Source of the DNA: an uncultured Saprospiraceae bacterium | GTDB taxonomy: Bacteria > Bacteroidota > Bacteroidia > Chitinophagales > Saprospiraceae | Direction of reading: 5' to 3' | Assembly (NCBI GenBank): GCA_938003955.1 | Contig: CALKXE010000086.1 | Span: 1-64,000, forward strand | Length of the DNA stretch: 64,000 nucleotides | Part shown: positions 57,615-64,000 of the stretch, in pieces | Numbering within the stretch: the stretch's first letter is position 1 | Layout of the letters: the number at the start of each line of letters is the position of its first letter | Position numbers and translations under genes: made by a program | Notes under the pieces: model-generated | Told to the model about the DNA's origin: nothing | Database searches by the model: none | Seen by the model: the letters and a program-made list of their open reading frames with translations, nothing else

Positions 57615-57980
57615 ATGGCATCGAAAAGACAAGAACAAGTAGCGGAATTGATTAGAAGAAATTTTGGAATTGTACTCCATAGTGATGGGTCTTATATCTA
57701 TGGGGACGCATTTGTAACTGTGACGTCAGTACTAGTGACACCTGATTTGTCAATGGCGAAGTTATATGTAAGCGTATTTAATACAGAAGATAAAGAGGCG
57801 GTATTACTTAGTCTTAATAAAGGAATAAAAGGTCTTAAAAAATCTCTTGCTTACCGTATTAGAAACCACGTTCGTAGAATGCCTGAAATTGCTATATACT
57901 TAGACGATACCCTCGATGAAATGTATAAGTTGAATCAGATATTTGACGGGTTAGATAAACCGAATCAAGAAGAAGAATAA
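57615..57980 (+). CDS. rbfA: 30S ribosome-binding factor A
   Basis: The 121-aa protein fits the RbfA KH-like fold: SKRQEQVAELIRRNFGIVL at the N-terminus, VTVTSVLVTPDLSMAKLYVSV in the centre, and the conserved LRRMPEIAIYLDDTLD-type end (HVRRMPEIAIYLDD here). It helps mature the 30S subunit and is important in cold adaptation. It converges with the metal permease gene. Confidence 0.95.
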   Translation: MASKRQEQVAELIRRNFGIVLHSDGSYIYGDAFVTVTSVLVTPDLSMAKLYVSVFNTEDKEAVLLSLNKGIKGLKKSLAYRIRNHVRRMPEIAIYLDDTLDEMYKLNQIFDGLDKPNQEEE

Positions 57981-58047: not shown

Positions 58048-59535
58048 TTATTTTTTAGAAACGATCACCTGTCCTGCTAGTTCTGGGTCCATTTCTATTG
58101 ATTTTTGACCTTGTTGAACTACAACTTTTTCTCTTGTTATTTTCTTTATTGTAACGAATGTATTGGGTAGTAATCCTAATTCCCACAGATCACTCTCTAC
58201 CGATTGATTTACTTGCTCTTTAATAATTCTAAGTTTGATATTCATTTTTTGAGATATCAAGGACATGATTAGTTTCTTAGATTTCTTAGGAATAGGGGAG
58301 CCGTGCGGATCTGTCTCTGGATATCCTAATTTCTTGTCTACTTCATCCAATAATTCGTCAGTTAAATGATGTTCTAGTCTATCGGCTTCGTCGTGGATCT
58401 GTCCTTCTGTGAGACCCATGGTAGATACTTGATATGATTCCCATAGTCTGTGTGCTCTTACTAGAGATTGGGCTTGACCCATTCCTTTCGCTGTAAGAGA
58501 AATGTCTGCTCCGACTAAGATGACGCCTTCGGCCGTAAGGTACTTGAGGTGTTTTTTTAATTGTTTCATACTCAATCCTAGCCTGTTGATTAGCTTTGGT
58601 ATGGTAAGTGGATTCTGAGGAGTATGTTTGATAGCTTGTCTGAGAATGTCTTCTCTTTCTATTTTTTGGCGTTGCCTGTAGGATCTTATCGTCCTAAGCA
58701 CAAGGCCTTTTTCTGGTGAAAATAGTGCAGCTATAAAATATAATGCAGAGGCAACAAGAACCATTGCTGGTCCTGGAGGGGTATTATATACAATGCTTAA
58801 TATCAAACCTAAAACCGAAGAAAATAATCCTAAAGATGCGGAAATGGCAATAACGTATTTTAATTTGTTAGAAAGTAAAAGCGCTGTAGATGAAGGAGTG
58901 ATTAACAGAGCAACTACCAATATAACGCCTACTGTTTTTAGCCCAGCAACAATAGCAAAGGATAACATCAACATCAAAAAGTAGTGTACCATTTTGGTCG
59001 ATATACCCATCGTGCTTGCAATTACGGGCTGGAAAGTTGTTATGAAAAGAAATCTATAGAATAGAGAGACACTACCGATTGTATATAATGTGATCAATAA
59101 TGTGAGAATGATATCTTCATTCGAGATACCCATAATACTTCCAATCAAGAAATCCTTAAGATCAAGATGGACGCCTCCCTCATTATTTAGCCAGCTAATT
59201 CCTATGACACCTATAGAAAACATAAGTGTAAAGACGATCCCAATGGCAGCATCATTTTTAGTTTTGATGTTTTGTTGGATCCAGGTGATGAGCAGTGCTG
59301 TCAGAAGTCCTGCAATAACAGACCCCATAAAGAAACCAATTGTACTATATCCAAATAATATAAATGCAAAAAAGACTCCAGGTAGAATAGCATGTGATAA
59401 AGCATCACCAATCAAAGACATGTTTCTAAGTACGATAAAACAGCCAAGAACACCATACATGATCCCAATAAGGGAACAAGTGATTAGAGCTCTAATGGCC
59501 CATGGTTCTAAAAGTACAGTTAATATATCATTCAT
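58048..59535 (-). CDS. metal ABC transporter permease fused to a DtxR/MntR-type regulator
   Basis: The 495-aa protein has an ABC-3 type permease with seven to nine membrane helices at residues 1-275 (motifs LIGDALSHAILPG at 41-53 and TVGVILVVALLITPSSTALL at 201-220). A winged-helix domain follows at about 292-355. A DtxR-type dimerisation and metal-binding domain at about 357-415 has His362 and Glu366 in AHRLWESY, HDEADRLEHH at 381-390 and DPHGSPIP at 409-416. A FeoA/SH3-like tail occupies 425-495. This order is that of chlamydial YtgCR, in which the regulator is released from the permease. It probably imports Mn, Zn or Fe; the ATPase and binding protein are not adjacent. Confidence 0.92.
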   Translation of the reverse strand: MNDILTVLLEPWAIRALITCSLIGIMYGVLGCFIVLRNMSLIGDALSHAILPGVFFAFILFGYSTIGFFMGSVIAGLLTALLITWIQQNIKTKNDAAIGIVFTLMFSIGVIGISWLNNEGGVHLDLKDFLIGSIMGISNEDIILTLLITLYTIGSVSLFYRFLFITTFQPVIASTMGISTKMVHYFLMLMLSFAIVAGLKTVGVILVVALLITPSSTALLLSNKLKYVIAISASLGLFSSVLGLILSIVYNTPPGPAMVLVASALYFIAALFSPEKGLVLRTIRSYRQRQKIEREDILRQAIKHTPQNPLTIPKLINRLGLSMKQLKKHLKYLTAEGVILVGADISLTAKGMGQAQSLVRAHRLWESYQVSTMGLTEGQIHDEADRLEHHLTDELLDEVDKKLGYPETDPHGSPIPKKSKKLIMSLISQKMNIKLRIIKEQVNQSVESDLWELGLLPNTFVTIKKITREKVVVQQGQKSIEMDPELAGQVIVSKK

Positions 59536-59558: not shown

Positions 59559-59566
59559 CAAAGATA
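59559..59566 (-). promoter_or_regulatory. -7 promoter element of the permease-regulator gene
   Basis: The minus strand reads TATCTTTG (TAnnTTTG), 23 nt upstream of the start at 59535. If the DtxR-like domain autoregulates, its operator should lie around here; I do not see a clear palindrome. Confidence 0.55.
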
Positions 59567-59865
59567 CGTGAATATTTAACACGGGTGTAATATTTTTTTA
59601 GGCTTACCTAAAAATTGATAATTAGCTGTTGTTTATATCTTACTTTCCTATTTCACTTTTTAATGATGCAAATTTGGAAACATACCCAAATGTTTCATTT
59701 TTTTCTCAAAAACGATGCAATATTCATTCAGTTTGAAAAAAAATAAATCTCCAATAAAGTACTTAACTTATGTAGTTACAAAGCATTACAAAGGAATACT
59801 AAATCTCATCAAAAATAAATTGAAATAAAATGTACTTCTTTGTTTGGGTTAAGATTAGATTCTAG

Positions 59866-60351: not shown

Positions 60352-60960
60352 TCATCTAACCCGTTCTAATAACTCATACTTACTACTTACACTAAGCAGT
60401 TGAAACAATCGCTTCTGATAAGTCTTCACGGTATTTACACTAATGAATAGCTTTTCGCCAACTTCCTTATAAGTAAGTCCATCCTTGAATCCAATTAAGA
60501 TTTCATATTCTTTGTCTGTAAGAGTGACACAGAGTTTACTCTCTAAGCTTTCTTTAGTGTAGGAGATTTTAGCATTTTCCATGCTATGTTTGAAAAGGGC
60601 CAATTCAATATTTACCTTCAGATCATTTTCGCTGAATGGCTTTACTATATAGCCATAGGGTAGTGTATCCTTTACCAAATCCAACGTAGTCTTGTCTGAG
60701 AACGAAGTAAGGTAGACAAACGGAACATTGTATTTTTTACGAATGATTTTCGCTAAATCAATCCCAGATAATGTACCTTTTATATTGATGTCTAGAAGAA
60801 TCAGATCAGCCTCTACTTGTGCAAATAAGTCCAATGCTTTGTCTCCGTTCATAGAATGACCTACGACTTTATGACCAAGCAGATCGAGGGTCGACTTTAA
60901 TTCTGCCGCTATAAGGGCTTCATCTTCTATGATGATTATTTTTGTGGGGTTATCCTTCAA
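60352..60960 (-). CDS. response regulator with LuxR-type HTH output
   Basis: The 202-aa protein has a receiver domain at about 6-120: acidic pair Glu12-Asp13 (IEDEA), phosphoacceptor Asp57 (LILLDINIKG), Thr85 (YLTSFSD) and Lys107 (YIVKPFS). A LuxR/GerE-type helix-turn-helix follows at about 140-200 (LTDKEYEILIGFKDGLTYKE, VNTVKTYQKRLFQLL). It is probably phosphorylated by the upstream HisKA_2-type kinase. Its start overlaps the end of the small membrane protein gene by 11 nt, indicating coupled translation. Confidence 0.92.
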   Translation of the reverse strand: MKDNPTKIIIIEDEALIAAELKSTLDLLGHKVVGHSMNGDKALDLFAQVEADLILLDINIKGTLSGIDLAKIIRKKYNVPFVYLTSFSDKTTLDLVKDTLPYGYIVKPFSENDLKVNIELALFKHSMENAKISYTKESLESKLCVTLTDKEYEILIGFKDGLTYKEVGEKLFISVNTVKTYQKRLFQLLSVSSKYELLERVR

Positions 60961-61331: not shown

Positions 61332-63344
61332 TTAGACTATTATTTTATAATCAGAAAATGAGATTTGAACATCCGTACCATTTTCTGTATTGATTGTCAT
61401 CTCTCCTTCTAATTGATCAGTGAGTGCGGATATCAGTGTAGTGCCGAAAGAGTTATTTCTTACATTTTTTGGATCGAAGCCTATACCATCATCCTTTATT
61501 TTAAGTTTCAGTTTTTTTCCTGTTTCTTTAAGCGACATTGATATGGTACCTTTTCTATTATCGGGGAAAGCATATTTTAGACAATTGGTAAAGAGTTCAT
61601 TGATGATTAGGCCTAGAGGAACTAGGGTATCTATGTCTATTTCAATATTCTGTATGTCTGCTTCTAGAATTATTTGATTAGGATTGACATCATACGTAGC
61701 AAATAATTCCTTAACCAACTTTTTGAGATAATCTGAGACACCTATTCCAGTAATAGATTCTTGCATATATAAATCTTGATGAATCAATGCCATTGATCTA
61801 ACTCGGCTTTTACCTTCGTTGATCGCATTAAGTACAGATTCGTCATTTATGGACCGACCTTGCAGTGTAAGCATACTTGATACTAATTGCAGATTGTTTT
61901 TTACTCTATGGTGTATTTCTCTGAGCAGGATGTCTTTTTCTGTAAGTGCCCTATTGATCACCTTATTTTGCGAGGCGATGCGTTTATTTCTTTTTCTGAG
62001 CTGCCACATTGCGACGCCTCCGAGAATCAAAATGACTGATCCCAGAAAACCTGCCAATTTATACTTGTCCAGTTTCTCGGACATTATCTGTTGGTCTTTT
62101 CTGTGTGCTTGATTGAGGAGTGCTTTTTCTTTTTCTGATTCGAAGGTTGCTAAGTTTCGCGCCATTGAAATGATCCTTTTCTCATCTTGAATATTGGCTT
62201 GATGGTCTATTTTTAGAGATAGATATTCGGCAACTTTCGCCGTGTTTTTTTCTTTTCTATATACGCTGACTAGACAATCACATGCTAGAGAGGCATACTC
62301 GTGACTTAACCGATCAGTAGCCCTTTTGTAGCTGATTAAACAATTATTTTTAGCTGATTGCAATTGGTCGTTTTCGAAATATCTAATACCTTTTTCAGCC
62401 AGTAATTTTGAATGGACTTCTAATAGTTCGTATGAAGAAATATCGCTTAGTAGACTATCGACTTTTTCCTTATCTAATGTTTTGTAAATATCTATTAAGC
62501 GGTGGATACTCGTGTAGTTTTTGCCGTTATGAGGAGCGGATCTAAGACTTTCAACTTGATTGAAATATTCAATTGCTTTGACGGTGTCTTTTTGCATTAG
62601 ATATGCTTCACCAAGTATGTGTAGACTAAATATCTTTGATATGTTTCTTAAGTTGATAGAACCCAATTCTAATGATTTATTTGCATTTTCTATGGCTTTT
62701 TCAGGGTTAAGTAGCTCAATGTGGAGGGTCGCAAGATTATTATATATGAAAGTGATTCCTGAATATTTTTTAGTTAGAGCTACATTGTATTCGGATATTG
62801 CTTGAGAATAATCACGATTAGCCTGGTGATACATTCCTTTTAATGTATGAAAATATCCTTTCTCGTTGAATTTTTTCTCTCCTAAATGATGATCCAGTAA
62901 ATCCAAGTATACTTTAGAACTATCCAATTGGCCAGTTAGATTATAGTATTCTACATTCAATCCACTTGACCAGACCGGCAATAGTTTATTTTTGAAAGTC
63001 CTACTTATTTCCACAATGCGATCTATATCCGATCTAATAAGTTTGGGGTCCTCATTCATGTATAGACGATACCTAGCTCTGAATTTTAGAGACCGAGCAA
63101 TGAAAAACTTGTAATTTCCCTCTTCTGCTATAGACAATGCCGACTCTATAAGGCTGTCAATATCTGGGTGCGAAAAATTGTAATGACTAACCAATTTTAA
63201 ATGCTTGGCAATCCTAGCACGAGGTTTCAATTCAGTATCTAATTCTGCTCTGATGCTATCAATCTTTATTTGGAGTTCAGCTTGCCCATTAACCATGAAT
63301 GTGTTGGTTGTGAAAAAAAGCAATATTAAAATCCTTAATATCAT
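61332..63344 (-). CDS. TPR-containing sensor histidine kinase, HisKA_2 type
   Basis: The 670-aa protein (from the ATG at 63344) has a signal peptide ending in TFMVNGQA and then about seven tetratricopeptide-like units. A membrane helix (LAGFLGSVILILGGVAMW) near residue 440 and a short coiled coil follow. The HisKA_2 domain has the phospho-His in LLREIHHRVKNNLQLVSSML, and a HATPase_c domain has INELFTNCLKYAF and DDGIGFDP. It probably senses an extracytoplasmic signal and phosphorylates the adjacent LuxR-type regulator. An upstream ATG at 63380 would add 12 residues before the signal peptide. The next gene upstream encodes a paralogue. Confidence 0.9.
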   Translation of the reverse strand: MILRILILLFFTTNTFMVNGQAELQIKIDSIRAELDTELKPRARIAKHLKLVSHYNFSHPDIDSLIESALSIAEEGNYKFFIARSLKFRARYRLYMNEDPKLIRSDIDRIVEISRTFKNKLLPVWSSGLNVEYYNLTGQLDSSKVYLDLLDHHLGEKKFNEKGYFHTLKGMYHQANRDYSQAISEYNVALTKKYSGITFIYNNLATLHIELLNPEKAIENANKSLELGSINLRNISKIFSLHILGEAYLMQKDTVKAIEYFNQVESLRSAPHNGKNYTSIHRLIDIYKTLDKEKVDSLLSDISSYELLEVHSKLLAEKGIRYFENDQLQSAKNNCLISYKRATDRLSHEYASLACDCLVSVYRKEKNTAKVAEYLSLKIDHQANIQDEKRIISMARNLATFESEKEKALLNQAHRKDQQIMSEKLDKYKLAGFLGSVILILGGVAMWQLRKRNKRIASQNKVINRALTEKDILLREIHHRVKNNLQLVSSMLTLQGRSINDESVLNAINEGKSRVRSMALIHQDLYMQESITGIGVSDYLKKLVKELFATYDVNPNQIILEADIQNIEIDIDTLVPLGLIINELFTNCLKYAFPDNRKGTISMSLKETGKKLKLKIKDDGIGFDPKNVRNNSFGTTLISALTDQLEGEMTINTENGTDVQISFSDYKIIV

Positions 63345-63484
63345 ATGGCAATTTACAAACTTGTAAATAAACGAAATCAATTTAATATTAATTTAGCGTA
63401 TATTTTCAATTAAATGTTAGCTAATAATTTAGTAATTATGTCACGAGACAGCCACTACACTGCCTCATGACAACTAACAAATAA

Positions 63485-64000
63485 TTATATTTTTGAGTTA
63501 GACTTATAGTCCTTTATTGATATCATTATTGATGTTCCTTTTTCGTTTGATATTTTCTTGGTTCCATCTAGTTGTTCAGTTAATGCATTGATAAGTGTTG
63601 ATCCAAAGGAGTTTTCTCTTGTTTTGGATGGGTCATAGCCAATTCCATTGTCAGAAATGATTAATACCATTTCATTGTTTATTTCATTCAGAGATACAGT
63701 AAGCATTCCTTGCTTGTTATTCGGAAAAGCATATTTCAAACTATTAGTTATCAGTTCATTGATAATCAATCCTAACGGCACGACGGTATCTACATCTAAT
63801 TCTAGTTCTTGGATGTCCAATGATAATTGAACCCTATCTTGATCCACTCTGTATGTGTCAAATAGCTCTGAGGTTAATTTTTCCAAATATGATTTTACTC
63901 CAATGGCGGTAAGGTTTTCTTTATTGTATAAATCTTGATGGATGAGTGCCATTGACCGGACTCTACTCTTACCTTCATTAATTGCTTTTATAGCCATTTC
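63485..64000 (-). CDS. sensor histidine kinase, HisKA_2 type, C-terminal part (5' end outside window)
   Basis: The visible 172 codons cover the end of the HisKA_2 domain (AINEGKSRVRSMALIHQDL) and the HATPase_c domain (LIINELITNSLKYAF, ISDNGIGYDP, NSFGSTLINALTEQL). It is a close paralogue of the kinase at 61332-63344, sharing the same blocks. The frame is open to the window edge, so the phospho-His and sensor region lie beyond it. It ends 141 nt upstream of the paralogue's start on the same strand. Confidence 0.9.
   Translation of the reverse strand, partial: EMAIKAINEGKSRVRSMALIHQDLYNKENLTAIGVKSYLEKLTSELFDTYRVDQDRVQLSLDIQELELDVDTVVPLGLIINELITNSLKYAFPNNKQGMLTVSLNEINNEMVLIISDNGIGYDPSKTRENSFGSTLINALTEQLDGTKKISNEKGTSIMISIKDYKSNSKI

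Follow-up and report, generated by a model that had tools for sequence, protein, structure and literature searches.

The window, a stretch of 64,000 nucleotides from the assembly of an uncultured Saprospiraceae bacterium, carries on its reverse strand a gene that encodes an ABC-3 metal permease and an MntR/DtxR-type metal sensor in one open frame, which begins with ATG and contains no internal stops (Table 1). The permease part matches the ABC-3 model (PF00950) over its full length (profile positions 6–257 of 258; 223.5 bits against a cut-off of 20.1). It is followed by a winged helix, a DtxR metal-binding and dimerisation domain and an SH3/FeoA-like tail. This layout had been proposed in the initial annotation and is borne out by the frame, Pfam, hhalign and AlphaFold. 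The order of domains is that of chlamydial YtgCR, as was also claimed, and the presence of both parts in a single frame supports the suggestion that one polypeptide couples transport with metal sensing. Synteny with the neighbouring rbfA gene is conserved and marks the locus of the lone fusion. Elsewhere in the window are a response regulator whose C-terminal part is a LuxR-like HTH (60352–60960) and two adjoining histidine kinases (61332–63380 and 63485–64000) whose C-terminal parts are closely similar.

Table 1. Features of the fusion locus, in coordinates of the window
Feature	Coordinates	Strand	Basis
Fusion gene, ABC-3 metal permease and MntR/DtxR-type sensor, 495 aa	58048–59535	-	ORF, Pfam
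Permease domain, aa 14–272, with conserved GDAxSH, D44/H48	58720–59496	-	PF00950, E 4e-66
Join, aa 273–298	58642–58719	-	AlphaFold, conservation, profile alignment
Winged-helix domain, aa 291–347	58495–58665	-	AlphaFold, hhalign, conservation
DtxR metal-binding/dimerisation domain, aa 348–417	58285–58494	-	PF02742 (Fe_dep_repr_C), E 1e-23
SH3/FeoA-like tail, aa 430–494	58054–58248	-	Homologue comparison, AlphaFold
rbfA, convergent neighbour, outside the system	57615–57980	+	Synteny
Operator palindrome TTTTAGGCTTACCTAAAA (TTTTAGGTAAGCCTAAAA), 61–78 bp before the fusion start codon	59596–59613		Pattern and matrix search
Candidate promoter -7 element TATCTTTG	59559–59566	-	Sequence, inference

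The metal domain is recognised by PF02742 at 83.4 bits against a cut-off of 27. It holds the ligands H362, E366, H381, D385, E388 and H389, with DPHG at 409–412; H362, E366, H381 and DPHG are found just as the earlier reading of the sequence had named them. The winged helix keeps its fold, and its recognition helix (321–336) and wing are not conserved. The Pfam model of the N-terminal DNA-binding domain, PF01325, does not match the fusion protein of the window, where Pfam finds only weak HTH_45 and HTH_11 matches, and among 34 homologues it produces a single weak match (0.004). In hhalign, residues 291–494 match the free-standing DtxR of the genus over its whole length with a probability of 99.9, the fused and free domains sharing 24% identity over the aligned length. 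The tail is variable in its occurrence: the FeoA model matches 16 of the 34 homologues, the window protein not among them, and the tail is missing in about a quarter of close relatives, whose proteins stop near residue 420.

The join between the two parts consists of a conserved SPxKGL turn and a basic helix that runs into the first helix of the HTH, with E295 and D296 invariant. D296 corresponds to Met10 of DtxR and Asp8 of MntR. In the AlphaFold model of the monomer (mean pLDDT 82.5, pTM 0.69), the last membrane helix ends at residue 272, and after a five-residue turn a continuous helix spanning residues 278–302 (pLDDT about 80–87) bears D296 and enters the winged helix, leaving no loose linker. 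The first structural neighbour of the model is PsaBC, the nearest solved permease structure (37–39% identity in structural alignment), followed by MntR, SloR and ScaR. No start codon is conserved within the sequences of 56 fusions: ATG or GTG occurs anywhere in residues 272–302 in 21 of them, with at most six at one column, and a free regulator produced from an internal start is rejected on this ground.

Partner genes and a shared operator

The assembly of the window genome comprises 5.24 Mb in 304 contigs and is 94% complete, which bounds the statements of absence made here. Within it, the fusion is the sole ABC-3 permease. Another contig, C257, encodes the one ZnuA-type binding protein of the genome together with the metal ABC ATPase of highest score, both directly behind a free DtxR of 220 aa that has all three Pfam domains, the DNA-binding one included (PF01325 at 61.9 bits). 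The best NCBIfam matches, which fall below the cut-offs, are MntR for this regulator and the Mn/Fe type for the ATPase; models of both the Zn and the Mn type match the binding protein. ZnuA of the window genome has a hydrophobic anchor segment at its end, and the stop codon of its gene overlaps the start of the ATPase gene. At several other loci the two are fused into one protein of 570–626 aa (L053:6371–8146 in G003, L057:5704–7482, L113, L117 and L119), an arrangement which ABC importers, to our knowledge, do not usually have. In the window genome, short tandem repeats, ACTGGCTTTTGTAGCATTTATTG and AAGAAATGCGGGAAACCAGTC, are present in the dtxR–znuA interval (L047:9041–9367; G000:C257).

The two loci share an operator. 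A pattern search with TTTAGRYNNRYCTAAA returns exactly two perfect sites in the whole 5.24 Mb genome, one before the fusion (C86:59597–59612) and one before the dtxR–znuA–ATPase operon (C257:20329–20344). A matrix built from dtxR upstream regions only finds matches before 37 of 49 lone fusion genes and 26 of 32 dtxR genes, against no match for the five in-operon fusions and a single one among 591 control genes, from which genes within 700 bp were excluded, since divergent neighbours contaminate the controls. The position of the operator before both loci indicates that the permease belongs to one regulon with the partners from which it is separated. The initial annotation had described the permease as an orphan, and nothing adjacent to the gene is indeed a partner; with the sole ABC-3 permease of the genome sharing its operator with the sole ZnuA and the best ATPase on C257, an orphan permease can be ruled out.

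The promoter candidate listed in Table 1, TATCTTTG, fits the TAnnTTTG consensus of Bacteroidota. The operator contains the CTAA half-repeat of the DtxR family, which in IdeR takes the form CCTAA (PMC10317159). The window genome also encodes two Nramp-type (MntH-like) transporters (G000:C258:12185–13234 and G000:C141:11349–12425), and the contigs of both have no operator site of the pattern used.

Distribution of permease–sensor fusions

Fusions spanning both parts are present in 36 of 61 related genomes, and three other species of the genus carry the fusion at 76–93% identity. This recurrence, which extends over many genera, rules out a frameshift or an assembly artefact. The search of related genomes had been proposed in the initial annotation together with a search for a split form; the DtxR half was not found as a neighbouring gene in these genomes, and the relatives without this half have simply lost it. 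Cultured strains with the fusion include Portibacter marinus, Flavilitoribacter nigricans and Lewinella cohaerens. Its wide presence in free-living bacteria makes the fusion testable outside an obligate pathogen; the open-licence papers searched contain no description of it outside Chlamydia. In most Saprospirales sampled, the fusion gene stands alone, commonly beside convergent rbfA, with dtxR, znuA and the ATPase gene elsewhere. Four genomes (G006, G008, G025 and G042) have a single dtxR–znuA–ATPase–fusion operon. A separate DtxR is encoded in 35 of the 36 fusion genomes.

A permease-domain tree, built by a quick method, sets the window clade close to permeases of Bacillota and to a group of Ignavibacteria fusions, and assigns the Tro-like fusions of Bacteroidota and the fusions of Planctomycetes to other branches. 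About nine changes in the state of the C-terminal part are needed on this tree. The sensor was lost once or twice within the window clade, where the sensor-less Saprospirales permeases (L080 in G036, L117, L118, L121 and L123) end just after the membrane domain and have no separate replacement sensor gene next door. In the Tro-like systems of Bacteroidota, just one of the two permeases bears the domain. Both paired permeases bear it in several Planctomycetes, Latescibacterota and one Omnitrophota genome (L132, L133, L139, L142, L146, L152, L154, L156, L157, L159, L164 and L165), and in most of these pairs position 381 is Asp in one copy and His in the other.

Conservation of the metal site and of the recognition helix

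Residues E295, D296, H362, E366, H381, E388, H389 and DPH (409–411) are 100% conserved in 56 fusions, with mainly Glu or Asp at position 385. More distantly related fusions, from Planctomycetota, Ignavibacteria, Latescibacterota, Omnitrophota and Verrucomicrobia, retain the ligand positions in almost every case, and across the wider fusions of several phyla position 296 is occupied by Asp, Asn or His only. What marks MntR proteins is Asp or Asn at the position of Met10 in DtxR, together with Glu at that of Cys102 (PMC10317159, PMC6860424). The fusion site is of the MntR type, with Asp at the former and Asp or Glu at the latter, and on these residues Mn(II) rather than Fe(II) appears to be the better guess for the metal it would bind, as also for a permease whose nearest structure, PsaBC, is that of a Mn importer.

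The recognition helix displays the opposite pattern in the fused and the free proteins: near-invariant in free DtxRs, it ranks with the most variable stretches of the fusions. Its mean entropy is 2.74 bits in the 56 fusions against 0.71 in 32 free DtxRs, and the two distributions do not overlap when subsampled to equal numbers (fused minimum 2.20, free maximum 0.77). Across the 22 genomes with both proteins, the mean pairwise identity of the recognition helix is 0.23 in the fused and 0.76 in the free form (the pairs are not independent), while that of the metal domain is 0.62 and 0.70, respectively. The separate Tro-like fusions reproduce the fused-versus-free contrast. IdeR contacts bases through Ser37, Pro39, Thr40 and Gln43 (PMC10317159). 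These columns map to positions 322, 324, 325 and 328 of the fusion, where the commonest residue accounts for 38, 20, 25 and 29% of fusions against 56, 100, 100 and 97% of free DtxRs, and the fusions do not conserve the base-contacting residues that the free DtxRs do. Comparisons inside the genus show three to four times as much divergence in the fused winged helix as in the fused metal domain by non-synonymous distances, the only ones used, synonymous sites being saturated in most comparisons. The recognition helix is basic in the fusions, with a mean charge of +3.4 against +1.6 in free DtxRs; it might possibly make non-specific contacts with nucleic acids or lipids, among them some contact with DNA.

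These observations bear on the release of an active repressor, which the initial annotation had offered as one possibility. The C-terminal part of C. trachomatis YtgCR is seen as a released product of 28–30 kDa and represses the ytg promoter (PMC5599777, PMC7755916). By the same scheme, the DtxR part would be cut from the permease and act as a metal-dependent repressor at the 59596–59613 operator. The common domain order, the DtxR-type operator preceding the gene and the intact metal and dimerisation domain all agree with such a scheme, but we find it unlikely. The recognition helix and the wing are unconserved in spite of a conserved operator; all but one of the fusion genomes have a free MntR, whose recognition helix is near-invariant and whose own operon has the operator before it; no internal start codon is conserved; and the continuous helix modelled at the join does not favour cleavage. 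Repressor release is accordingly not supported. The pairing of a conserved operator with an unconserved fused reader suggests, from sequence comparison, that the free MntR is the likely repressor at the shared site. The uncut protein could also bind DNA from the membrane in the manner of CadC or ToxR, for which its basic winged helix is on the appropriate, cytoplasmic side; the lack of conservation at the base-contacting positions, set against the conserved operator, makes this highly improbable.

Compared through the descriptions in the papers and not through chlamydial sequences, YtgCR (CT069, ytgABCD operon) and the window fusion both place a TroC-type permease before a DtxR-type domain in one polypeptide, keep the metal-ligand residues and are co-regulated with a metal ABC importer. 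They are set apart by the reported cleavage and DNA binding of YtgR. Furthermore, the window fusion is a lone gene with one permease instead of two, outside any two-permease operon of the ytgABCD or troABCD order, its DNA-reading surface is unconserved, and a free MntR is present alongside it. No free DtxR or Fur homologue is evident in Chlamydia (PMC5599777).

Loss of the DtxR part in G036, L117, L118, L121 and L123 without a replacement gene next door might indicate a passenger, either vestigial or of structural use only. Such a role is quite improbable in view of the full invariance of the metal ligands in 56 sequences, the restriction of position 296 to three residues in the wider fusions and the slower change, by a factor of three to four, of the metal domain relative to the winged helix within the genus.

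A possible brake on metal import

On balance, and with moderate confidence, we favour the explanation that the fusion is a Mn(II) permease fed back on by its own MntR-type domain, and that a separate MntR handles transcription. In an ABC importer for Mn(II), or possibly for Mn and Fe, the fusion would supply the membrane subunit along with a cytoplasmic metal sensor of its own. A homodimer is expected because the genome has no other ABC-3 permease; it would assemble with two products of C257, the ATPase and a ZnuA-type binding protein anchored in the membrane, and would bring two sensor domains together as a pair. Two sensors per transporter are likewise available in the Planctomycetes, Latescibacterota and Omnitrophota pairs in which each permease bears the domain. 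The free-standing MntR-type DtxR of C257 would control both loci via the shared palindrome, the fused DtxR part not being that repressor. We infer both the homodimer and the binding of the free MntR to the operator.

In MntR, metal binds between the helix equivalent to that of D296 and the dimerisation domain (PMC6860424). A metal bridging the join helix and the dimerisation domain in this way would act directly on the membrane-joined segment of the fusion. At high cytoplasmic Mn(II), metal would bind between D296 and the 348–417 domain, the metal-loaded sensor domains of the homodimer would pair, and helix 1 would move and hold the permease and ATPase inactive. Such trans-inhibition would resemble that of MetNI and ModABC, ABC importers which have the sensor on the ATPase (PMC10710835, a review that does not mention DtxR). 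Like theirs, the sensor of the fusion is a C-terminal cytoplasmic domain, which as a pair could bind what the importer transports and halt further uptake; it differs in its location on the permease and in being an MntR/DtxR domain, the sensors of MetNI and ModABC not having a transcription-factor fold. With its metal site kept and its DNA-reading surface not, the sensor probably throttles the transporter directly instead of switching genes.

PsaC, of the PsaBC/MntABC-type Mn(II) importers of Gram-positives, is the closest solved permease, and permeases of this type are without a C-terminal sensor domain, unlike the fusion. With the repressors MntR, TroR and SloR the fusion shares Asp at position 8/10 and the domain for metal binding and dimerisation; its winged helix differs from theirs in being without the conserved residues of recognition and in its attachment to a membrane domain.

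Several points count against a brake. The monomer modelled by AlphaFold reveals no coupling to the ATPase, the Tro-like systems of Bacteroidota have one sensor per permease pair and hence no sensor dimer within a transporter, and the complete loss of the sensor in some relatives means that it is not essential. The fused sensor might alternatively dimerise with the free MntR and hold it at the membrane, so that the transporter signals to transcription. Both proteins keep the DtxR dimerisation domain, both are co-regulated and the same conditions would load both with metal; however, the low identity between the fused and free domains (24%) and the retention of the same kind of permease by relatives without the sensor render sequestration improbable.

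Returning to the brake, we give an even chance to its wider form, in which an MntR/DtxR domain became a metal-gated, helix-coupled brake on its own ABC permease in Saprospirales and, among related fusions, in several other phyla, with the free paralogue serving transcription and YtgCR perhaps a special case. A transcription-factor domain would then have been reused as an allosteric brake on a transporter, its metal site kept and its DNA-reading surface released from selection. Mn(II) homeostasis would comprise two layers, a slow one provided by the free MntR at the operator and a fast one provided by the sensor on the permease. This would also bear on how permease–DtxR fusions such as YtgCR function while tied to the membrane.

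A related arrangement is seen in about 40 Bacteroidota genomes, in which two adjacent permeases each have a winged-helix tail without the DtxR metal domain (L232–L243, e.g. L232:4656–6936); the tails are assigned from a structure model, the permease half of which has low confidence. One of the two tails has invariant His and Glu residues (H316, H320, E325 and H334 in L232). As modelled, these tails without a metal domain again argue against the winged helix on such permeases being a repressor.
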